Notes under the pieces: generated by a model
What the model was told of the DNA's origin: nothing
Seen by the model: the letters and a program-made list of their open reading frames with translations, nothing else
The model's database searches: none
Source: a virus
Direction: 5' to 3' (one strand)
DNA: 34,995 nucleotides
Virus record (IMG/VR): IMGVR_UViG_3300020463_001373
Span: 1-34,995 of that record
Part shown: one piece after another, positions 1,560 through 24,927 of the stretch
How positions within the stretch are numbered: the stretch's first letter is position 1
Layout: each line of letters starts with the position of its first letter
Position numbers and translations under genes: made by a program

Positions 1560-2168
1560 TCAATTTACAAATACTTCCTTCATAATTAATTTTGCTTCTG
1601 TTATATTAAAGTTTAAAAATGGCTTTAATCTGGTAATCGTATGTGAGATTTTAGGCCATACAACTTTTTCATTAATATCTTTGTCCCAATTTTTGAAAAA
1701 CGCAAGATGTTTATCCAAATAGATGGTGGTTTCGTGTTTAATTTTCCCTTGAATAAGTAATCGTAAGACTCTAGGATGCTGTCCATTAGATACGCTGAAA
1801 CCATCATCAAAAGAAATACGCTTACGCATAAAGTCATCATTAATCCGTACGCAATCGTCCCGAAAATGATATCTAAAAGATTCTTTATACTTTTTATATC
1901 GGGTATAATTGTCAGTACCTTCATTGTCTAGTAAGTTTCCTATCCACTTGTCCCCATTAATAACAAAATTGGCAACAAAATAATCCAATATGTCTCGTTC
2001 ATTAAAACGCTTGGATAGTTTATGAAAAAAATATCTATCTTTTCTTTTAGTAAATGTGTCCAATGTTGCATTTGTTTTTCCACCATATTTTACGTAATCG
2101 TATGTGTCGGTTGTAAAGTGTAGTTTAACACCAAGATACACTTTATATACATCAAATCCACCATACAT
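1560..2168 (-). CDS. 59: gp59-like loader of the replicative helicase
   Basis: In T4, gp59 loads the gp41 helicase onto forked DNA coated with gp32 and links recombination to replication. This 202-aa protein aligns by eye with T4 gp59 (217 aa) along most of its length. DVYKVYLGVKLHF matches T4 SVYKLYLMIKQHM, and KRKDRYFFHKLSKRF matches KRRDKYFFQKLSEKY. FVANFVINGDKWIGNL matches FISNLVANQDAWIGDI. Its place directly downstream of a gp33-like gene, as in T4, supports the call. Its start overlaps the stop of the 47-aa membrane gene as TAATG. No gp32-like gene follows here, unlike in T4. Confidence 0.9.
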   Translation of the reverse strand: MYGGFDVYKVYLGVKLHFTTDTYDYVKYGGKTNATLDTFTKRKDRYFFHKLSKRFNERDILDYFVANFVINGDKWIGNLLDNEGTDNYTRYKKYKESFRYHFRDDCVRINDDFMRKRISFDDGFSVSNGQHPRVLRLLIQGKIKHETTIYLDKHLAFFKNWDKDINEKVVWPKISHTITRLKPFLNFNITEAKLIMKEVFVN

Positions 2169-2311
2169 TAGTGTTTATCTCTAGTCTCATCATAACCAAA
2201 GTCCATAACAATACTTATAATAGTGAAAACTACACCTAATAGTATTATTCCCCATAGGCCTTTATCCCATTCAACAAATAATATGTGATATAACATTTCT
2301 AAGCCATTCAT
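2168..2311 (-). CDS. Small single-pass membrane protein, 47 aa
   Basis: The frame starts MNGLEMLYHILFVEWDKGLW, continues through a hydrophobic helix (residues about 20-36, ending FTIISIVM) and ends in the charged tail DFGYDETRDKH. It was read by hand because it is very short. Its stop overlaps the gp59 start (TAATG), and its ATG overlaps the last codons of gp33. It therefore sits exactly between two genes that touch each other in T4. The family is not recognised. Confidence 0.6.
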   Translation of the reverse strand: MNGLEMLYHILFVEWDKGLWGIILLGVVFTIISIVMDFGYDETRDKH

Positions 2312-2526
2312 ACAGGTAAAGTACCACCTTTCTTAATCTTCAATAGATTGGCGTCTAAAGCTTCTGCTTTAATTTTCTCTTTTAATGATTTTGAAATTAG
2401 TCTTGTTGTGGTTTCTACTTCTATATTGTTTGACTCGCAATAATGAATAATGGCGTCAATATAGGTAATTGGTTTTTTTTCTTTGACAATATCGTTTATT
2501 TTAATTGTAAATTCTTTGCTATTCAT
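2308..2526 (-). CDS. 33: gp33-like late transcription co-activator
   Basis: In T4, gp33 bridges the RNA polymerase beta flap and the gp45 sliding clamp and activates late promoters. This 72-aa protein has the compact layout of marine T4-like gp33 proteins: KEFTIKINDIVKEKK, then DAIIHYCESNNIE, then LISKSLKEKIKAEA, and a C-terminus ending GTLPV. It is shorter than T4 gp33 (112 aa), as in cyanophages. The neighbouring gp59 gene repeats the T4 order 33-59. A promoter-like sequence (2534-2562) lies so close to the ATG that its transcript would have almost no leader. TATAAATA late sites in this window are its expected targets. Confidence 0.8.
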   Translation of the reverse strand: MNSKEFTIKINDIVKEKKPITYIDAIIHYCESNNIEVETTTRLISKSLKEKIKAEALDANLLKIKKGGTLPV

Positions 2527-2533
2527 AGTATAT

Positions 2534-2562
2534 AATATATCACTTATTTAATTAAATGTAAA
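2534..2562 (-). promoter_or_regulatory. Sigma70-like promoter: TTTACA-N17-TATATT before gp33
   Basis: The -35 (2562-2557) has one mismatch to TTGACA, the spacer is 17 bases, and the -10 (2539-2534) is TATATT. It sits between the tmRNA 3' end and the gp33 ATG at 2526, so initiation would fall about one base before the start codon. Confidence 0.45.
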
Positions 2563-2612
2563 GCGTGGTGTTTCTGTTGCCAAGTACACCACAAAACTCC
2601 GTCACCTAAAAA

Positions 2613-2666
2613 TTAGGCAGCAATAGCAAAATTTGAATTGCCATTTAAAATTGCGTTTGAGTTCGC
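2613..2666 (-). other. tmRNA tag reading frame: ANSNAILNGNSNFAIAA
   Basis: From a GCG resume codon at 2666 the frame reads ANSNAILNGNSNFAIAA followed by TAA (2615-2613). The hydrophobic FAIAA end has the form recognised by ClpXP-type proteases, and alphaproteobacterial tags typically end in AVAA or ALAA. The exact resume codon is inferred from the frame and from the preceding AGTTG, not proven. Confidence 0.75.
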
Positions 2667-2720
2667 CAACTATTACTCTCTTATAGACTCTTCAATATCT
2701 GTCGAACCTACCACACCCCC

Positions 2721-2754
2721 CATAAGCACACATACTGATTTATAAATGTGTTTA
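2721..2754 (-). other. Internal transcribed spacer hairpin of the permuted tmRNA
   Basis: The segment between the mature CCA end and the mature 5' G can fold together with the terminal CA. CATAAACACAT pairs with ATGTGT and TTATG, with a two-base GC bulge and a loop of about 12 bases. Such a spacer is cut out to make the two-piece RNA; the processing sites are inferred. Confidence 0.65.
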
Positions 2755-2825
2755 TGGTGGAGGTGGTGGGAGTTGCACCCACGTCCAGCCTACCTATCTT
2801 GTCTATCGTCAACAAGTAATTCTTT

Positions 2826-3176
2826 TTAACTCTCTATACCGGGTGTATCTTTTAAGTCGAATGAGTGAGAGATTATACAACTCTCCATTCCTGACGGCTC
2901 TGTCAATACAATCAAGTGTTGGTCTTTGTCATTAGCAAAAGTGGTTACGTAGTAAGCTATTTCACCATCCTCTGAAGCACCAACCCTTGCAACTGAAAAT
3001 GTCTCTGGTACAAAGTGGTATTTTTGTACATACGTGTTTACATCAACTGAATATCCACATTGTGCTGGTAATGCCATATTACCTAATGGAGAATTATATT
3101 CAGGAGCAAAGTCGTGCTCTGCCTGAGCTGTAAACGCAAATATGCTTATGATAAAAGTTAATATTAATTTGTGCAT
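2826..3176 (-). CDS. Secreted protein of unknown function, 116 aa
   Basis: The protein begins with a clear Sec signal peptide (MHKLILTFIISIFAFTAQA, cleavage after AQA). The mature part has about 97 residues with two cysteines (CGYS and CII), which could form a disulfide in the periplasm. It looks like a small beta-rich domain, but I do not recognise a family. A GGAGG ribosome site lies just upstream (GGAGGCATTA before the ATG). It lies between the exonuclease gene and ssrA. It is one of several exported phage proteins in this window. Confidence 0.75.
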   Translation of the reverse strand: MHKLILTFIISIFAFTAQAEHDFAPEYNSPLGNMALPAQCGYSVDVNTYVQKYHFVPETFSVARVGASEDGEIAYYVTTFANDKDQHLIVLTEPSGMESCIISHSFDLKDTPGIES

Positions 3177-3214
3177 TAATGCCTCCGTTAAAACTTAATT
3201 AAGGGGCCACTTGA

Positions 3215-3898
3215 TTATGTATTTAGCTTTGTTTTATTAAGTTCTTCATAATATTTATAAAAATCCTTAATACATTGTTCTAATTGCGTCAAATATTCTG
3301 ACTTTTGTTTAACAAAACTATGACAACTACCATCTTCACCGGCTTGTAGAATTACAACTTGCTCTATGGGAGTTCCGAATAGCTCTTCATACATTATTGC
3401 ATAAGCAGTACATTGTAAATAATAATTTAGATTCCAACTATCAATACGTTCTTTGTTTGCTGTTTTGAAATCTATTACAGATAATTTACCGTTATACTCT
3501 GCAATACAATCAACTTGACCTGCAAGTGTTAATTTATGCGAGTACATTATTCTTTCTAAACAATGTATATTTTCGATTTGGTCAAGATACGGTTTCAATA
3601 GTCTAAACATTCCTATAGGAAGAACATCACGTATAGTTGATGGTTCACCTTTTAAATATTGTTCAACAAGAGTATGTGTTGCTTTACCTCTTCGAGCCGC
3701 TCTCGCCATTTCCCATTTAGCGGCTTCTTCTCCAACATTTTTACGCCATCTTTCTAGGCCTTCTTTTTTTTGAATACCTAAAACGCTGGTTACAGACGGA
3801 TAATGTTTATCGTCAATGTTGTAAAATCTAAATCCATTCTGATTCATTCCCTTTGTTTTTGGGAATTTGTTTTCATCTAATTGTATGAAATTTGCCAT
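3215..3898 (-). CDS. PD-(D/E)XK nuclease, MGME1/Cas4-like exonuclease
   Basis: This 227-aa protein has the core of PDDEXK_1-type exonucleases. An N-terminal PSVTSVLG segment (34-41) is followed by RRGKATHTLVEQYL, with the conserved His at 75. Then come LAGQVDCIAEYNGKLSVIDFKTA, with D130 and the catalytic pair D143 and K145, and a C-terminal YYLQCTAYAIMYEELFG helix. The order H-D-D-x-K matches mitochondrial genome maintenance exonuclease 1 and phage relatives that degrade DNA ends. No Fe-S cysteine cluster like that of Cas4 is visible. It probably acts in host DNA breakdown or recombination; that is inference. A consensus sigma70-type promoter lies immediately upstream. Confidence 0.85.
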   Translation of the reverse strand: MANFIQLDENKFPKTKGMNQNGFRFYNIDDKHYPSVTSVLGIQKKEGLERWRKNVGEEAAKWEMARAARRGKATHTLVEQYLKGEPSTIRDVLPIGMFRLLKPYLDQIENIHCLERIMYSHKLTLAGQVDCIAEYNGKLSVIDFKTANKERIDSWNLNYYLQCTAYAIMYEELFGTPIEQVVILQAGEDGSCHSFVKQKSEYLTQLEQCIKDFYKYYEELNKTKLNT

Positions 3899-3931
3899 TA
3901 TAATACTTCCAATCTATGTTTCATTCTCTCT

Positions 3932-3960
3932 ATTATATACATCACAACCATAAATGTCAA
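3932..3960 (-). promoter_or_regulatory. Consensus sigma70 promoter: TTGACA-N17-TATAAT
   Basis: Both hexamers are perfect (-35 at 3960-3955, -10 at 3937-3932) with the ideal 17-base spacer. It drives the exonuclease gene (ATG at 3898) with a normal leader holding a GGAAG ribosome site. It is the strongest promoter in the window and would suit early transcription by host polymerase. Confidence 0.88.
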
Positions 3961-4003
3961 GCCTAATTTGACCTGTATAACGTTAAATGGTCGTTAATTA
4001 ATT

Positions 4004-4028
4004 CGGGACTATCTCTTAACTCGTCCCG
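4004..4028. repeat. Inverted repeat CGGGAC/GTCCCG between endolysin and exonuclease genes
   Basis: A 6-bp GC-rich stem with a 13-base loop stands out in this AT-rich gap. On the minus strand it follows the endolysin stop by about 10 bases, so it could act as an mRNA 3' stabiliser or a weak terminator. No T-run follows, so I do not call it a terminator. Confidence 0.4.
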
Positions 4029-4037
4029 CTTAGTCTT

Positions 4038-4508
4038 TCAATTAGGGTCGTAAGACTCATAACAAGTCTTATTACTCTCATTCTTGAAAGCTCTCAATAT
4101 CTGTTTACGGTTTTCACCATCATCACGATAAGAGCAATGTACCCACCCCGAATTAGGTTCATCTAAATTGTGGAATTCCAATATCATTTGGTCAAAATCG
4201 CAATTCTCTGAAATCCACTTTACTAATTCAGCGTTGCTTAATCCAAACACCTCGAAGTCGGCCGCCTGCCCTTTGGCGTGCTGTGAATTTTTGCTCGAGC
4301 CTATGGCCTCGCAAAGGTCTGGACTACGATACCCACTAGATACGGATACTACCTTACCATAATGGTCTCTAACTTTTTGTAAGACATTTTCACATAATGC
4401 TTTTAAAGCATTCATATGGTCTTCACTAGGATTATTATTAATCCCCTTACGGATAGCTGTCTGTGAAGCTGTCATTTCTTTTAAACTAAAATTGTTTGAT
4501 AATTTCAT
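4038..4508 (-). CDS. M15-family peptidase, candidate endolysin
   Basis: The 156-aa protein is a zinc D-Ala-D-Ala-type carboxypeptidase or L-Ala-D-Glu-type endopeptidase of the Peptidase_M15_3 family. SSGYRSPDLCEAIG (57-70), SQHAKGQAADFEV (75-87, ligands H77 and D84) and GWVHCSY (121-127, ligand H124) are all present. It starts directly with the catalytic domain, without signal peptide or membrane anchor, as cytosolic endolysins do that depend on a holin. An AAGGGAT ribosome site precedes the ATG. A second muralytic gene of a different class is at 7577-8260. Confidence 0.88.
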   Translation of the reverse strand: MKLSNNFSLKEMTASQTAIRKGINNNPSEDHMNALKALCENVLQKVRDHYGKVVSVSSGYRSPDLCEAIGSSKNSQHAKGQAADFEVFGLSNAELVKWISENCDFDQMILEFHNLDEPNSGWVHCSYRDDGENRKQILRAFKNESNKTCYESYDPN

Positions 4509-17790: not shown

Positions 17791-18465
17791 TCACTTCCAG
17801 TTGTCCAGCACCCATTTTTGTGTGGATTCGTGAGGATTTGGCTGTCCGTGAAACACGGCCACCAACGATTCGCTACACTTCTCGAAAGTCCAGTCTGATT
17901 TATGAAATCTGGGGTCGTCTCTTGTAAACCACTTATATGAAAAAGTCCATTCGTTAGGCATATATCTCATCCAGGGAAGGTGCTTAAGAAGTTCATAGGT
18001 CACATTTTGGTCTCCTTGAAACCGTCTCCATTTTGGTCTATCTTCGTAATACTTTTCCCATACAGCCGGTGTGGCATTCTTATTATTCCATTTCATAATA
18101 GAGGAGTTGATACCATCAAAACCTGTAAAGTCGTGTAATACACCAAAGGTCATATCATCACCAAAGGTGGCCATCTGGTCTATATTCTCTAATATAACCA
18201 CATCTAAATCCATATACAGATTAACACCCTCTAAACCATTATCAGGATGAAATAACTGCATTTTATTCCACCACCCTTGTTCATCAAACAAAGGAAATTG
18301 TTTAAATTCTATATCACCTTTTACTCTTTTATGTAAAGAAGTATTATCTGTAAAACATATGAATTTATGGTCAACCGTTAAATTTCTCTTAACCATATTG
18401 TACAAGTTTTGTACATAGTTTGGTTTGTATTTGTTACCATAATAAACACAAACAAAGTTTATCAT
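17791..18465 (-). CDS. GT-A-type glycosyltransferase, 224 aa
   Basis: The protein has a Rossmann-like start (MINFVCVYYGNKYKPNYVQN), an FICFTDN strand, and the metal/nucleotide-sugar motif YMDLDVV with DLD at 86-88. Further on lie WNNKNATPAVWEKYY and FQGDQNVTYELLKHLPW, typical of GT8/GT32-like enzymes in which a DQ pair near residue 150 sits in the acceptor site. No membrane segment. It is the last gene of the island and overlaps the stop of the next one by four bases. It likely transfers a hexose in building a surface glycan; donor and acceptor are unknown. Confidence 0.82.
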   Translation of the reverse strand: MINFVCVYYGNKYKPNYVQNLYNMVKRNLTVDHKFICFTDNTSLHKRVKGDIEFKQFPLFDEQGWWNKMQLFHPDNGLEGVNLYMDLDVVILENIDQMATFGDDMTFGVLHDFTGFDGINSSIMKWNNKNATPAVWEKYYEDRPKWRRFQGDQNVTYELLKHLPWMRYMPNEWTFSYKWFTRDDPRFHKSDWTFEKCSESLVAVFHGQPNPHESTQKWVLDNWK

Positions 18466-19328
18466 TTTATCTGTTCTTGAATCTGTTCTGGTTTTAAATG
18501 GTTATTAGGTTGTGTCATTAGTAATTTGTATGCTGTACCATCTGCAATCTCTGACAATTTAAATTGATTATCTACGACCATTTTTAACCATTCATTTATT
18601 GTCTTATGACCTGGTCTCATAGGTTTAGTAATCTTACCTATATGTTGGCCTGCAATAAAACTTACTATGTTTCTTTTATGTGATAATACTGGTGTCATAT
18701 TTAAAATACCATCTATTGCTGATAATGACATATTGGTTACCATTGCTTGACAACCTTTTAAATCTTCTCTAATATCTGTATTCCACCATTCATTTCCTGG
18801 TCTAGGTTTTTGTCTAACTTTAATTGGCATTTCTTGAAACTCTGTATGAAGAGTTGCTTGTTTAATCTGGTCTGTTGCAACTTCAATCCATTTATTTACT
18901 GACATACCATTAACGTGCATTGTTACCGTTGGTGATGATGGTGCTAATAAGAAGTGTGTCATTTCACCTGTTTGCCAACCTTTAAATTGACAATCAATAC
19001 CTTCACTTTCTAATTTAGATAATCTTGAGCCATCACCTACTGCACCTCTTATTGTATGTAAATTACCTTTACATATTCTAAAGTACATTCTATCCCAATC
19101 AACTTTAGGTTCTGGATATCTAGTGAAAGGCGCATTTAAATAACCAACATCTACATACCACCATTCTTTATCAAATCTGATACACTCTCTTATTTTATCT
19201 ACATTTTTACCTGCTAAACCCCAAAAAAAATGTATTTCGTGGTCTGCGTCTTGCCAACCTTTTTTAATTGCTGGCCAAATCTTATGTGATAAGCATTTAT
19301 CCCAAGCTATGTTATGTGTTATTATCAT
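18462..19328 (-). CDS. GT-B-like glycosyltransferase, 288 aa
   Basis: The C-terminal half carries CQAMVTNMSLSAIDGILNMT followed by PVLSHKRNIVSF, the pattern of capsule and Kdo-type transferases (serine-rich loop, then a helix ending with a buried Pro). The end NQFKLSEIADGTAYK is nearly the same as NQFMLSEITTDYAYK in the 23.5-24.4 kb gene, so the two are paralogues. Another motif is the central THFLLAPSSPTVTM, comparable with TILVIPPSEHTATW in the paralogue. The N-terminus is less conserved. Function is probably sugar transfer from a nucleotide sugar to a polysaccharide. Confidence 0.75.
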   Translation of the reverse strand: MIITHNIAWDKCLSHKIWPAIKKGWQDADHEIHFFWGLAGKNVDKIRECIRFDKEWWYVDVGYLNAPFTRYPEPKVDWDRMYFRICKGNLHTIRGAVGDGSRLSKLESEGIDCQFKGWQTGEMTHFLLAPSSPTVTMHVNGMSVNKWIEVATDQIKQATLHTEFQEMPIKVRQKPRPGNEWWNTDIREDLKGCQAMVTNMSLSAIDGILNMTPVLSHKRNIVSFIAGQHIGKITKPMRPGHKTINEWLKMVVDNQFKLSEIADGTAYKLLMTQPNNHLKPEQIQEQIK

Positions 19329-19993
19329 AAATCTACCTTTTTCATATTATTATATGTATCATACCATTCATCAGCATAATCACAATTTTTATATTCTTTA
19401 AAGTAAGGACCACCTAGTGTGAAGTGTACATTTTTTGCGTTCTCGTTATACTCATATTCACTTACTAACCAGTTCCATTCTAATGGTATCTTACCAATTG
19501 CCATATCATTTGGCAACCATTTAAATTGGTGAAGTTCTAAACCAGAGGCTGTATTCACATATTCAGGTGTTAATTTATTACACATTATATTATGAAACAA
19601 CATCATACTAGACCAATTTTTCTTTTCAAACTTCTCGTTCTTTGCACCTCTAAATTTTAAATCTTGTTTAGGTTCGTAATCGTGTTGACAACACATTACA
19701 GAATATTTAAAAGTTCTCATATCAAATAACTTTGTTATATCATCACGAAACAACATATCACAATCCATAAAAATAGACCAACCCCTATAGCCACTCAAAT
19801 ACGGTACCATAAATCTACTAAAGGCAAAATCAGTTGACTGATTAGGTTGTTTTTCTCTTGTAAAACCTGGTATATTACCTAAACATAATGGTGTAATAGA
19901 TACAGGAGTTGTAGTATGTTTTCTTATGCTTTCTGATAAAGTATGAAAGGCAACCTTTTCTCCTTCATCAAATCCTATAAAAACATTAATCAT
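19325..19993 (-). CDS. GT8-like glycosyltransferase, 222 aa
   Basis: MINVFIGFDEGEKVAFHTLS, then IPGFTREKQPNQSTDFAFSR, FMVPYLSGYRGWSIFMDCDM (DCD at 77-79) and KWLPNDMAIGKIPLEWNWLV form a complete GT8-like GT-A fold. DCD takes the place of DxD for the Mn-nucleotide-sugar. The phrase TDFAFSRFMVPYL is widely shared by such proteins in phages and bacteria. It overlaps both neighbours by four to eight bases. The donor sugar cannot be inferred. Confidence 0.83.
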   Translation of the reverse strand: MINVFIGFDEGEKVAFHTLSESIRKHTTTPVSITPLCLGNIPGFTREKQPNQSTDFAFSRFMVPYLSGYRGWSIFMDCDMLFRDDITKLFDMRTFKYSVMCCQHDYEPKQDLKFRGAKNEKFEKKNWSSMMLFHNIMCNKLTPEYVNTASGLELHQFKWLPNDMAIGKIPLEWNWLVSEYEYNENAKNVHFTLGGPYFKEYKNCDYADEWYDTYNNMKKVDL

Positions 19994-20579
19994 AGATTGT
20001 CAATCCTATTTTACCACTTGCGTTCATAATTTGGTGGACGACATCTGTTTTCATTTGAAAAACTTTACCTGCTTTAATTGTTTCTTTATGTGTCATATAA
20101 TCTAATTCTGATTTTCTGTATATATGAATATTAGGTCTTATATCACCTATGTACCATTCAATATCAACATCATCATTAGGAAACATCATAATAGCTTCTT
20201 GTCTATTATTGTCAATCAATAAAGGGTGTTCATCTAGTACCATATATCTAATCTTTAGTTCTCTACCTGGTCCTACAAAATTCTCTAGTTGAGGTTTTAT
20301 ATGGTCATACATTTCTTGTTGTGCATTGTGAAAAGTAAATGCACCTTTTAACTCGTGGTCTATTAATATGTTTGGTATTTTTTCTATTTCTTCTTTTGAT
20401 AAGAACAAACTTTTTGGTATATCTAAATCAAAAGGTATAACATAAGACGGACCTTGAACACGCTCTTGATACATATTCATTGTAGCGTCTGTAGCCAATC
20501 CTGGATTTATTTGAGGTCCTTTTAGAGAAGTAAACCTATGTTTTTTTGGTATTGGATTTATTCTTTCATCATCACTCAT
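19986..20579 (-). CDS. Conserved protein of unclear fold in the glycan island, 197 aa
   Basis: The first 40 residues are polar (PIPKKHRFTSLKGPQINPGL). The middle has FHNAQQEMYDHIKPQLENFV and IRYMVLDEHPLLIDNNRQEA. The C-terminal part, IHIYRKSELDYMTHKETIKA followed by GKVFQMKTDVVHQIMNASGK and IGLTIYD, looks like the closing strands of a jelly-roll (cupin or 2OG-oxygenase-like) domain with His in DVVHQ. No full HxD...H triad can be assigned, so I do not call it an oxygenase. It may modify or bind a sugar or amino acid used by its neighbours. Confidence 0.72.
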   Translation of the reverse strand: MSDDERINPIPKKHRFTSLKGPQINPGLATDATMNMYQERVQGPSYVIPFDLDIPKSLFLSKEEIEKIPNILIDHELKGAFTFHNAQQEMYDHIKPQLENFVGPGRELKIRYMVLDEHPLLIDNNRQEAIMMFPNDDVDIEWYIGDIRPNIHIYRKSELDYMTHKETIKAGKVFQMKTDVVHQIMNASGKIGLTIYD

Positions 20580-21301
20580 ACTCTAGCCTCCGGACTTTTC
20601 ATTAATTTTTTTCTTTTTGGTCCTTTTATGTGGTCATACACAGGTCCTAATATAGACCTTGCCTGTACGTGGCCACCTCGACCATCACCTATACTTTTAT
20701 TTATGACACCTTTTTTCTCGTATCTTTTTCTTACCAAGTCCCATATATAACTATCGTGTTGTTCTTTTTCTTTATATATTAAGTCTTCATTATACATATT
20801 TTGCATTTCTATACCATAACTTTTTGTTTCGGGGTGCCTCATATTAAAGTATAAAAAACCACATTCACTATATTGTTTTTCACCTCTACCTAGATAAGTC
20901 ATCATAGCATTTTCATTATGTATATATTTTTTAATCCAATCTGCGTCTATTCTTTTATAAAATACACTATCTGCGTCTATACAAATTAAACCATCATAAT
21001 CTTCATTTGTAATTATTTCATTTGTATATGAATATACTTTATAACTAAATCTTACACCGTCTTTTAAGAAACCAGTTCTAGGGTCATCTGATACTGGTCT
21101 ATGTTTGTTTCTATTAATAAACTCTTCACATTCTGGTACTTCATCAAAAATACTTCTTACAATTATATTAGTATGAGGTATGTCATTTAAGTCTTCACTA
21201 TATACAATCAACTCAAAAGGCCAATTATAAGATTCAAAAAACTTATAACCATATTGTTTATATAGTTTTTTATTTAATGTGGTAACTACTGCTACGTTCA
21301 T
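20576..21301 (-). CDS. GT-A-type glycosyltransferase, 241 aa
   Basis: The motif CIDADSVF with DAD at 109-111 marks the nucleotide-sugar/metal site, preceded by the typical FSYKVYSYTNEIITNEDYDG helix. YSECGFLYFNMRHPETK and EQHDSYIWDLVRKRYEKKGV follow, where the D-S-Y-I-W segment is the acceptor region. The last part, KSIGDGRGGHVQARS followed by GPVYDHIKGPKRKKLM, is basic and recalls the C-termini of phage transferases. Four-base overlap with both neighbours shows tight coupling. Substrates unknown. Confidence 0.8.
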   Translation of the reverse strand: MNVAVVTTLNKKLYKQYGYKFFESYNWPFELIVYSEDLNDIPHTNIIVRSIFDEVPECEEFINRNKHRPVSDDPRTGFLKDGVRFSYKVYSYTNEIITNEDYDGLICIDADSVFYKRIDADWIKKYIHNENAMMTYLGRGEKQYSECGFLYFNMRHPETKSYGIEMQNMYNEDLIYKEKEQHDSYIWDLVRKRYEKKGVINKSIGDGRGGHVQARSILGPVYDHIKGPKRKKLMKSPEARV

Positions 21302-22218
21302 TGTATTACACCTAAATGTTCTAATGGTTTTCCTTTAATTATTTCTTCTACACTCCATTGTGTGTATGCTAATTTATTTAGTAAATTTTGTCTATCACCT
21401 AATCTAGGATTTTCAACCTCTTCTATATCGTGTGATGAAATACCATATAAAAAATTATATGGACTAGGTGTAATAACAGGAACACCATACATCAAAGCGT
21501 CAATAGAAGCACCACTAGTATAAGATACAGCACAATGAGCATTTGATAAATCTTTTTCTAAACTATCTACACTAAAGCTTACTTTATCTATTTTATACAT
21601 CAAGTCAAACATTTCAGTAATACTTGACTTTGATAATGGGTGGTTTCTAATAACTATTTTTCTATCTGTTACCTTTTTTAAATGCTTTACCGTTGTCATA
21701 ACCCATTGTAGAATATCTAAGCCTAATAAAGAAGCGTCTGAAGGATTTTGACAAAACAATAATACATTTTTATTTTTTGAAGTATCACGCCAAGGTTTTA
21801 CTTTTAAATTTAATTGTTTCTGTAATATCTTCCATCTTCTATCATCTGACTTCCATTTAAAATCTGCAAGCTTAGGTAAGAAGTGGTCTAAACCAACTCT
21901 ATAATGTGTATGTTGGTCTGTTAATTGTCTTCCTAAAAGAGGTGTTTCTAATACTACCAATTTATTTGAAGGTATATCTATTGTATTATGACTTCGTTCT
22001 ATATCATTTTTTATTTTATGTGGTAAATTCTTAATCTTCCATAATTTACTAGAGTGTTTTTTAGTAGAACCAAAAACAACTGCAACATCACAATGTTTAT
22101 ACTCCTCACCATCATATAACTCCCAATTCTTACCAGATTGTACTAAATTCTTTTGTAGTTTTAAGAATATATCTCTCTGGAAATAATTATGACAGGTCTT
22201 GAAGTAAATTAATCTCAT
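21298..22218 (-). CDS. GT-B-like transferase of the capsule/glycerophosphotransferase type, 306 aa
   Basis: The second half shows VLLFCQNPSDASLLGLDILQ, IVIRNHPLSKSS and HCAVSYTSGASIDALMYGVP followed by VITPSPYNFLYGI. IVIRxHP and the SYTSGASIDALMYGVPV loop are hallmarks of the CDP-glycerol/Kdo/capsular transferase superfamily: the His of RNHP and the serine-rich loop bind the nucleotide. It is distantly similar in layout to the two other GT-B-like proteins of the island. It overlaps the FkbM gene by four bases. Confidence 0.78.
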   Translation of the reverse strand: MRLIYFKTCHNYFQRDIFLKLQKNLVQSGKNWELYDGEEYKHCDVAVVFGSTKKHSSKLWKIKNLPHKIKNDIERSHNTIDIPSNKLVVLETPLLGRQLTDQHTHYRVGLDHFLPKLADFKWKSDDRRWKILQKQLNLKVKPWRDTSKNKNVLLFCQNPSDASLLGLDILQWVMTTVKHLKKVTDRKIVIRNHPLSKSSITEMFDLMYKIDKVSFSVDSLEKDLSNAHCAVSYTSGASIDALMYGVPVITPSPYNFLYGISSHDIEEVENPRLGDRQNLLNKLAYTQWSVEEIIKGKPLEHLGVIQ

Positions 22219-22889
22219 CTTAAAATAACAGCTTCACTTAATATTTTATTTCGTGGTCTATTTAAATGTAGTTTATAACCTTTATCTTTAAATTCTTTTA
22301 ATAAATCTTCGTATTGTTTTATACTTGTTTCATTGTCAATAAGTTTTACTTCAAACTCTACAAGAAATGCTTTGAAGTTAACATTGAAATCTAATACTTC
22401 TCTACAAAAATCAAACCATACACCCTCAATATCTGCTTTAATTATATCTACTTTACCATCTACATCATTTAAACTTTCTTGTAAAGTAATTGTATCAACT
22501 TCAATATAACTAGGAGTTTCACCAAATTGTGGTAAAGGTAATAGTGAATAACATTTTGTCAAGTCTTTAGAGTCATAATAAAACTTCATCTTTTCACCAC
22601 CTTTAGCATATGCTTTATTATGAAAGGTCATTTTATCTTTATAATTAAAATTAGTTTCAAATAGTTCAACACTATCAGGTGTAGGGTCATAACAATGTAT
22701 ATTTAAATTAGGATTATCTACACACATAGCTTGTTCCCAACCTACATCACGGTGTACACCATAAGATAATACATTTTTACTTTCTTTTACTATTGATTCT
22801 GGTAACCAATAGTTTTTATATTGTTTGAAAGATTGAGGTTGTAAATATTTGCCTTCAATCTCTTTCATTCTATTATATAAATCACTCAT
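22215..22889 (-). CDS. FkbM-family methyltransferase
   Basis: This SAM-dependent enzyme (224 aa) has motif I as LSYGVHRDVGWE (41-52), where the usual GxGxGxxxxxE pattern of the family is relaxed to YGVxxDVxWE. The acidic ribose contact is in HCYDPTPDS (65-73), and FkbM's characteristic VDIIKADIEG (147-156) is present. The family O-methylates sugars and similar metabolites. Its place among glycosyltransferases suggests methylation of a glycan, which can hide or cap it. No membrane segment. It overlaps the oxygenase gene by eight bases. Confidence 0.87.
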   Translation of the reverse strand: MSDLYNRMKEIEGKYLQPQSFKQYKNYWLPESIVKESKNVLSYGVHRDVGWEQAMCVDNPNLNIHCYDPTPDSVELFETNFNYKDKMTFHNKAYAKGGEKMKFYYDSKDLTKCYSLLPLPQFGETPSYIEVDTITLQESLNDVDGKVDIIKADIEGVWFDFCREVLDFNVNFKAFLVEFEVKLIDNETSIKQYEDLLKEFKDKGYKLHLNRPRNKILSEAVILR

Positions 22890-23526
22890 ATACTTTCCAA
22901 TCTGTTTTAAAGGTTACATAATTTAATTGTATACCTCTTCTTTCTACATTTATTTGTTTGCCTTCTTCCATACCGTGCCATTTATTAGGTCCGTGAAATA
23001 CATAACCATAGTTGTGCCAAAATGGTACCGTATGTTTTAATTCAAGGTCTTCACTATATAAATCTGTACCTAAACTTACATTTTCACCTGTTTGATTTAC
23101 ATATATTAAACTTGATATTAATTTTTCTGGTATATCACAATGAGGTTTTAAATAAAACCCTTGCGTATCATTTAGTATTTCTAATCTTACGTATGCGTCT
23201 TTAAAATTATCTTTATTACCTACTAATCTTGCAAATTCTTTTCTTACAGGTAAACTTTGCATTTCTTTTATGAAATTAAATAAGTTAGGATATTTGTGTC
23301 TGTTTTCAATGGTAACATATTCTCTTATCTTATCATTTTGTTTACCAACACCATCTTTATAACCTGACCTTGTACCGTCAAACAATACACCTTCTTTTTC
23401 TAATTTTGCATTTCTAATTTCTTCTATTTGAGATTCATTTAGACTTTGGCCAAAAGTATGATACTCCCAAGGCACACTATGAGTTTGTGCATTTCTTAAA
23501 CTATTTAATAAAGGTTGATGAAACAT
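22882..23526 (-). CDS. 2OG-Fe(II) oxygenase, 214 aa
   Basis: The iron triad is visible as H129 and D131 (KPHCDIPEK) and H184 (NKWHGMEEG), with an Arg near 196-197 (VERRGIQLNYV) to bind 2-oxoglutarate. The segments LISSLIYVNQ and YGYVFHGPNK are the jelly-roll strands. Such oxygenases are frequent in marine T4-like phages and hydroxylate proteins, nucleic acids or small molecules. Position in the glycan operon suggests a sugar or lipid-linked substrate, but that is inference. It ends close before FkbM, so the two may act in sequence. Confidence 0.85.
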   Translation of the reverse strand: MFHQPLLNSLRNAQTHSVPWEYHTFGQSLNESQIEEIRNAKLEKEGVLFDGTRSGYKDGVGKQNDKIREYVTIENRHKYPNLFNFIKEMQSLPVRKEFARLVGNKDNFKDAYVRLEILNDTQGFYLKPHCDIPEKLISSLIYVNQTGENVSLGTDLYSEDLELKHTVPFWHNYGYVFHGPNKWHGMEEGKQINVERRGIQLNYVTFKTDWKVYE

Positions 23527-23528
23527 TT

Positions 23529-24410
23529 TTATTCTCCGTTAATATACTTATAAGCATAGTCAGTTGTAATCTCACTTAACATAAACTGGTTACCTATCAA
23601 AGACCATAACCATCTTTCTCTTAAATCAGAATATAAAGGTTGTTCTATTTTATCTAGGTCATTTAAACTATATGACACTCTATTTGCTGGACTATGTTCA
23701 CTTGTAAAACTAGGTACACCTGCAATTACGGCTTCACAAGCAGCCATACTATGCCAAGACACCATAGCAAAACAATTTTTTAGTTCAACACTTAAAGGTG
23801 TTGAATTTCTTTTACCGTGTTTTCTATTTACGTATTTGTATCTAACCTGAATAGGTCTATCTGTATGTTTTCTTATCTCTGCTTTAATATTTTGTATCCA
23901 AGATTTTACTTCAATATCATACCAAGTTGCCGTATGTTCAGACGGTGGTATAACTAATATTGTTTGACCATCTTTTTTCCAGTCTTTCAATGTCATTTGA
24001 TTCAAGGTATCTTTATCAGTACACATACCTTTTACATATTCAAATCTTTCTCTATGTCTCTCATTAATATCAATCATCTGTACATTATTTTTAATTATTC
24101 TATACCAAGGTTGACCAAAACCTGGATGTGGTTGATACTCATTATAGAATAGATAAGGTTGGTCAAAGTAATAATAAGGTACATTATTTGTTTCACAAGC
24201 CATTTGAAGTCTTTTAGTACCTCTTATGATACCTTGAAAACAAACCTCAACATCATCATCTATAAACTTGCCATTCCACATTGGCCAATGCTGATTGTAA
24301 AATTCTGGTCCTTTAGTCTCTGCAAAATCAAAAAACTTTTGAGTATGACCTTTACCAAACTCTTCAATATATTTTCTAGTACCTCTTTTAGTGTTGAACA
24401 GATATAGCAT
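23529..24410 (-). CDS. GT-B-like glycosyltransferase, 293 aa
   Basis: I start it at the ATG at 24410 (MLYLFNTKRGTRKYIEEFGK), which overlaps the end of the resolvase gene. Motifs are TILVIPPSEHTATWYDIE, RPIQVRYKYVNRKHGKR and CFAMVSWHSMAACEAVIAGV followed by PSFTSEHSPANRV. The last is the nucleotide-binding loop of capsular/Kdo-type transferases. The C-terminal NQFMLSEITTDYAYK matches the paralogue at 18.5-19.3 kb. It opens the glycan island directly after replication genes, without any visible promoter of its own. Confidence 0.76.
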   Translation of the reverse strand: MLYLFNTKRGTRKYIEEFGKGHTQKFFDFAETKGPEFYNQHWPMWNGKFIDDDVEVCFQGIIRGTKRLQMACETNNVPYYYFDQPYLFYNEYQPHPGFGQPWYRIIKNNVQMIDINERHRERFEYVKGMCTDKDTLNQMTLKDWKKDGQTILVIPPSEHTATWYDIEVKSWIQNIKAEIRKHTDRPIQVRYKYVNRKHGKRNSTPLSVELKNCFAMVSWHSMAACEAVIAGVPSFTSEHSPANRVSYSLNDLDKIEQPLYSDLRERWLWSLIGNQFMLSEITTDYAYKYINGE

Positions 24411-24927
24411 TACCAACCTTCATAATATAATAACTATCAACAATATCTGATATAGGGTTACCTACTTTTTCTGTATCAAATATTTTTTTCAAGTCAATTT
24501 TAGTTTCATTCACAAACGCCTCATACATTTTATCTTTATCAGCGTTACCTTTACCTGTTGCACCTTTTTTTACCACACTTGGTACTACCGTTTCATATGG
24601 TAAATTTTCTTCTTGTAGTCTATACTTTAATATACCACAATTTTCTGCTATTTGAAATAGACCTTGACCTTTTGAGCCAAAAGAATAGCCTTCTATGTAA
24701 ATTTTAGGATTGTATGTGTCTTTGATTATATCTAATGTGAAATCAGATATTTGTTTAAACCTCTGAATAGGGTCTGTCCATTCTTTATGTTCATAACCAA
24801 CAATCGATTCATTCATCATACCTTGCCACTTCTTTTTGTTTGTCAAATAGAAAAACATCAAGCTACCATTATTAATACAAACAGCAGGACTTGTTAAACT
24901 ATAATCAATTCCAATTATCGTCTTCAC
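24388..24927 (-). CDS. RuvC-like Holliday junction resolvase
   Basis: An RNase H-fold nuclease. Using the GTG at 24927 the protein starts MKTIIGIDYSLTSPAVCI, the usual opening of phage RuvC-like resolvases. An upstream ATG at 24960 would add 11 residues inside the zinc-ribbon gene and also has a GAGG nearby. Catalytic acids are visible as Asp in GIDYS, Glu in YIEGYSFG and Asp in SDIVDSYY, with the KKGATGKGNADKDKM basic loop between them. In T4-like phages without endonuclease VII such enzymes are thought to resolve branched DNA before packaging. Sixty to seventy residues from the end it is Lys/Asp-rich. Confidence 0.82.
   Translation of the reverse strand: MKTIIGIDYSLTSPAVCINNGSLMFFYLTNKKKWQGMMNESIVGYEHKEWTDPIQRFKQISDFTLDIIKDTYNPKIYIEGYSFGSKGQGLFQIAENCGILKYRLQEENLPYETVVPSVVKKGATGKGNADKDKMYEAFVNETKIDLKKIFDTEKVGNPISDIVDSYYIMKVGNAISVQH

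Follow-up and report, generated by a model that had tools for sequence, protein, structure and literature searches.

An intact circularly permuted tmRNA gene in a pelagimyophage related to Pelagibacter phage Mosig

Two-piece tmRNAs carried by phages are already described. A study of 2022 reported one in the Methylophilales phage Melnitz, named Pelagibacter phage Mosig among the tmRNA-bearing phages and proposed roles similar to the one considered here (PMC9004378). Of the 133 unique phage tmRNAs counted there, 53 were two-piece, and of 47 Melnitz-like contigs 17 had a permuted tmRNA (PMC9004378). The locus analysed here lies on the minus strand of a 35-kb virus record, the whole of which we refer to as the window. 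Judged by its sequence, the window is part of the genome of a pelagimyophage related to Mosig, which is the nearest isolate, has HTCC1062 as its host and carries an annotated SsrA at the same place in its record; the window NrdA is 87% identical to that of Mosig. The SsrA of Mosig EXVC030M (MT647606, Mosig_00148) shares with the window copy 80% DNA identity over 79% of the query, the same order of exonuclease, small ORF, tmRNA and gp33, and the same Gly-type tag, which in Mosig reads GEDNFALAA. It differs in the P2 sequence, the spacer length and the tag residues.

The copies of Melnitz (MZ577097; PMC9004378) and HTVC008M are likewise two-piece and lie upstream of gp33. However, in Melnitz the spacer is long, the tag has 14 aa and the glutamine riboswitch RF01739 follows just downstream, and in HTVC008M two other ORFs separate the tmRNA from gp33. 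RF01739 was not found in the window at the gathering cut-off, nor in 1900-4100 at E values up to 5, and the Melnitz control was recovered; Rfam returned no riboswitch of any kind above cut-off in the window. The chromosomal ssrA genes of SAR11 (Pelagibacterales) resemble the window copy in being permuted, in their 9-aa tags ending in A(L/I)AA and in their non-canonical T-loop, but they have a shorter spacer and an Ala-first tag and form a separate clade, and the window scores with RF04321 and RF01849 lie below those of the listed SAR11 copies (~122-144 bits). Two further phage copies lack annotation in their public records: the permuted tmRNA of HTVC008M itself (L003:2939-3280; RF04321, 90.6 bits; tag ANFNEYALAA), and a permuted beta-type tmRNA (RF01850; tag ANDNVYAAAA) in Alcaligenes phage QDWS595 (L005:1941-2317), which adjoins several unannotated tRNA genes.

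An Rfam search of the window gave two matches on the minus strand, RF04321 (tmRNA_permuted) at 2817-2613 with 91.9 bits (cut-off 47, E 1.1e-16) and RF01849 (alpha_tmRNA) at 2865-2562 with 71.1 bits (cut-off 50, E 1.2e-17). Both scores exceed the curated cut-offs, which assigns the locus to the two-piece tmRNA family, and ARAGORN called a permuted tmRNA with the tag GNSNFAIAA on the same strand. Moreover, the acceptor piece with its T-arm and CCA precedes the coding piece, the acceptor stem has a G3-U70 pair, P2 holds the two pieces together, PK1 stands ahead of the tag, and the tag ends in a hydrophobic degron followed by a stop. These sequence matches confirm that the minus strand at ~2562-2822 is a circularly permuted (two-piece) tmRNA gene. 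A preliminary description of this DNA, made from the letters alone, had proposed just such a phage-encoded gene and had named ARAGORN and RF01849 as its tests; both are positive. The elements it had picked out, a 7-bp acceptor stem with G-U at pair 3, the CCA, GGTTCGACAG and a GTCTAT/ATAGAC helix, are all present. It had the right locus in 2564-2815, but its 5' limit fell short of the start of the acceptor piece.

Table 1. Elements of the permuted tmRNA gene and neighbouring features in the window
Feature	Position	Strand	Evidence
gp33-like late-transcription coactivator, next gene downstream	2308..2526	-	PF16805 E 9.4e-23, phrog_254
Coding piece of tmRNA	2562..2720	-	RF01849 match end at 2562
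3' hairpin GUGGUGU/ACACCAC around conserved UGGCAACAGAA	2565..2592	-	5/7 pairs changed both sides
Tag reading frame GNSNFAIAA (9 aa) and stop TAA 2615-2613	2613..2642	-	ARAGORN, alignment A1, tag table
Frame-setting pentamer UAAAU ahead of resume codon (U -5, A -4)	2643..2647	-	A(-4) conservation; PMC2481249
Pseudoknot PK1	2653..2671	-	~90% cells paired, 3/7 pairs changed both sides
P2 3' strands GUCUAU 2688-2683, GAGUAAU 2678-2672	2672..2688	-	helix map and covariation
D-loop-like conserved motif GGTTCGACAG (also written GGUUCGACAG) and P2a strand CAG	2699..2708	-	alignment; CUG/CAG pairing covaries
Acceptor stem 5' strand GGGGGUG	2714..2720	-	helix map, alignment
Intervening spacer with hairpin	2721..2754	-	RNAalifold hairpin, compensatory changes, length varies among relatives
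Acceptor piece of two-piece tmRNA	2755..2822	-	RF04321/RF01849 matches, helix map, covariation
Acceptor stem 3' strand CACCUCC 2765-2759, discriminator A 2758, encoded CCA 2757-2755	2755..2765	-	invariant 30/30
T-arm GUGGG / UGCAACU loop / CCCAC	2766..2782	-	100% cells paired, 3/5 pairs covary
P2 inner helix, 5' strand AUAGAC	2801..2806	-	partner 2688-2683; 6/6 pairs changed both sides, 98.9% cells paired
P2 outer helix, 5' strand AUUACUU	2814..2820	-	partner 2678-2672; 99.5% cells paired (30 sequences), 3/7 pairs changed both sides
116-aa ORF, ends just upstream of tmRNA	2826..3176	-	family searches; no family match
PD-(D/E)XK exonuclease, conserved upstream neighbour	3215..3898	-	phrog_298 E 7.3e-65, PF12705
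Sigma-70-type promoter TTGACA-17-TATAAT, upstream of exonuclease-ORF-tmRNA unit	3932..3960	-	12/12 consensus match

In the tRNA-like half, CCA is encoded and the alanine identity pair G3-U70 is present. This G-U (2718/2761) is the third of the 7 bp of the acceptor stem (2720-2714/2765-2759); the stem is invariant in 30/30 relatives, so that it supplies no covariation evidence. By analogy, the spacer 2754-2721 is probably missing from the mature RNA. Base pairing joins the two pieces through 6 + 7 bp of P2, and both helices covary. The second of them, AUUACUU/GAGUAAU, reaches partly beyond the limits given in the preliminary description, and because it covaries as well we place the mature 5' end of the acceptor piece at or upstream of 2820. 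The 3' end of the coding piece is predicted near 2562; no intrinsic terminator was found downstream of the 3' hairpin. In PK1, stem 1 is AGUU/AACU (2671-2668/2663-2660) and stem 2 is GCG/CGC (2666-2664/2655-2653). Stem 1 covaries among relatives, where it occurs as AGUU/AACU, AGUA/UACU and AGGU/ACCU.

A pattern scan of viral contigs for permuted tmRNA gave at least 119 stretches, and 30 distinct relatives in one alignment (A1) were used to measure covariation. Standard pairs occupy 96.0% of cells, compared to 82.9% in shuffles (30 sequences), a percentage that leans towards the window since the structure was derived partly from it; independent of this, 22 of the 42 pairs are altered on both sides with pairing kept. 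Covariation scores 0.331 in the alignment and 0.101 in shuffles, and none of 500 shuffles matched the observed value on any measure. When the 3' strand is slid by 1-3 columns, pairing falls to ~45-50%. Finally, RNAalifold recovered the main helices independently.

The tag is almost certainly GNSNFAIAA, read from GGC 2642, rather than ANSNAILNGNSNFAIAA, the 17-codon frame that had been put forward from the letters alone. The longer frame is open both in the window and in Mosig, yet we consider the same tmRNA with a 17-aa tag from GCG 2666 highly improbable. GCG 2666 sits in the PK1 loop, where it pairs with CGC 2655-2653 in stem 2. In E. coli tmRNA the frame-setting bases are A86 (-4) and U85 (-5) (PMC2481249); A and U stand at these positions ahead of GGC 2642, but G and A ahead of GCG 2666. 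The A at -4 is found in 31/31 distinct phage contexts and in 17/18 SAR11 contexts. In relatives, a 1-nt deletion between the two starts breaks the long frame (L014 and the L009/L056/L307 group), and those with the tag ANDNNFALAA have an in-frame TAA three codons ahead of it. These features, together with the 9-aa tags of SAR11, make GGC 2642 almost certainly the true start. PK1 and this codon are 10 nt apart, compared to 12 nt between PK1 and the resume codon in E. coli (PMC2481249). Synonymous codon changes (GCTATTGCTGCC, GCCCTTGCTGCC, GCATTAGCAGCT) leave the degron-like ending A(I/L/M)AA intact. As a separate candidate, GGC 2667, which follows an E. coli-like AAUAGUU, was rejected: its frame in the window overruns the AIAA stop and the codon is in the PK1 loop.

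The conservation of the genomic position was surveyed in 80 loci, not all of them independent, that were fetched via the exonuclease, 74 of which have a gp33 match. A tmRNA lies between the exonuclease and gp33 genes in 59 of these 74, and the window copy occupies this same Mosig-like pelagimyophage slot; a gp59-like helicase loader is also found downstream of it. In the remaining 15 of 74 no tmRNA was detected between the two genes, by Rfam too, and since these relatives do without it the tmRNA is not essential. In Mosig, in HTVC008M and in several, but not all, of the viral contigs, TTGACA/TATAAT-like sites occupy the place equivalent to the promoter of the window; over the region as a whole, promoter-like sites are no more numerous than chance would give. 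An extended -10-like site, TTTACA-17-TATATT preceded by TG, lies at 2534-2562, directly ahead of the gp33 start codon and at the tmRNA 3' end. Elsewhere in the window, a minus-strand run of ORFs at 17791-24416 resembles glycosyltransferases and a methyltransferase by eye.

The preliminary description had deduced an alphaproteobacterial host from the permuted form. The host is probably right, in that the virus, being related to the SAR11 phages Mosig and HTVC008M, probably infects SAR11, but the permuted form alone is insufficient for this. Two-piece tmRNAs are also known from beta/gamma lineages and Cyanobacteria (PMC9004378), and since Melnitz has an alpha-type copy and a non-alpha host (PMC9004378), a host cannot be read off from the type of tmRNA alone. 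A permuted tmRNA is present in 185/198 SAR11 genomes. SmpB is present in both of the SAR11 genomes looked at; it was found neither in three complete isolate phage genomes and four viral contigs nor in the window. The phage tmRNA would thus have to rely on the SmpB of its host.

In two trees of ~190 columns, in which the window copy clusters with those of L014, L009 and Mosig, the phage copies fall outside the cellular alpha/SAR11 set, which is supported at 99/98 in one tree (without one divergent alpha sequence) and at 94/99 in the other. This placement suggests old phage lineages more than a recent capture from SAR11. A recent transfer from the SAR11 host finds no support in these trees, in which some supports are weak. 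The idea that the gene is lately acquired host DNA, brought in, say, when a prophage at ssrA excised imprecisely, and unselected in the phage, draws on ssrA being a common integration site and on the same route having been suggested for Melnitz (PMC9004378). We regard it as barely credible: strong covariation, a conserved slot in many phages and the position outside the alpha/SAR11 clade indicate long upkeep, and no integrase is among the families found near the tmRNA. In particular, the compensatory changes already largely refute it.

The ssrA gene in the window is, as far as its sequence tells, intact and phage-owned; that the mature RNA consists of two pieces is a prediction. We consider it probable (about 0.72) that this two-piece ssrA is transcribed early and uses host machinery to keep ribosomes circulating during infection, and the likeliest role would be to top up host trans-translation. 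Host RNA polymerase would transcribe the exonuclease-ORF-tmRNA unit early from the promoter at 3960-3932, and host tRNA-processing enzymes would cut the precursor at ~2755 and 2720. Host AlaRS would charge the RNA, and host SmpB and EF-Tu would deliver it to ribosomes that have come to a halt on broken mRNA, where GNSNFAIAA would be added to the unfinished peptide, which would then pass to host ClpXP-type proteases. On the simplest reading, the phage would increase the amount or the persistence of the tmRNA on which the host machinery draws, with the benefit that ribosomes keep circulating as host DNA and mRNA are destroyed and the host ssrA gene is lost.

Two other roles have to be weighed against topping up. 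The phage tmRNA might compete with that of the host, its Gly-first tag changing the adaptor or protease so as to spare phage products or steer host ones. This would fit the Gly-resume tag clade (GNSNFALAA, GNENFALAA, GEDNFALAA), which is unlike any of the 58 SAR11 tags examined, and tag modules that look recombined between backbones (L106 versus L117 and L122). However, the window tag retains the host length, 9 aa in 58/58 SAR11 tags, and the host-like -A(I/L)AA ending, and some phages with the same slot (L367-L384) encode exact SAR11 tags, ANESYALAA or ANEQFALAA, on a tmRNA backbone that is not SAR11-like. Since these relatives carry host tags, a distinct tag is not required. The earlier suggestion that the phage redirects tagging with its own tag accordingly finds little support, and we hold this role possible but unlikely. 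An RNA acting as a decoy, which occupies SmpB, AlaRS or ribosomes and so inhibits host trans-translation, would have a precedent in the tag-less tmRNA-like RNA of mycobacteriophage DS6A, as cited in PMC11915505, and with no SmpB in the phages searched titration is possible in principle. A decoy needs none of the tag frame, PK1, frame-setting bases or alanine pair, but all of them are maintained; because the whole tagging half is kept up, we judge this role very unlikely. Topping up host trans-translation is the role we prefer.

Some tmRNAs of the sample are mosaic. The acceptor piece and 5' part of the coding piece of L106:2936-3211 are as in L117:3195-3470, and its PK1-tag half is as in L122:1937-2196; in L051:4029-4283 the spacer resembles that of the window clade but the acceptor piece is a different one. 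We put forward, as a tentative and rather improbable extension, that the tmRNAs of pelagimyophages form a phage lineage of long standing in which the tag-PK1 module recombines, so that a phage may carry a host tag or its own Gly-first tag, a choice that would function in infection. Another group of marine viral contigs (L011, L021, L023, L026, L043, L061, L078 and others) has permuted tmRNAs with predicted 23-aa tags, for example ANAFKPEVTVPVSVFADAELVAA, far longer than those of SAR11; the tags of L025 and L040 are AKQKALGFADLTVLAQPEMRLAA.

What is new here, compared to the copies described before, is the covarying two-helix junction and PK1, the correction of the tag to 9 aa, the count of loci with the gene in its slot, the comparison with host tags and the signs of exchange of the tag-half module. 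Because host and phage tags often differ, mass spectrometry or reporter assays could separate host from phage tagging during infection. The gene indicates that ribosome rescue belongs to the functions encoded, and kept up, by a common group of SAR11 phages.
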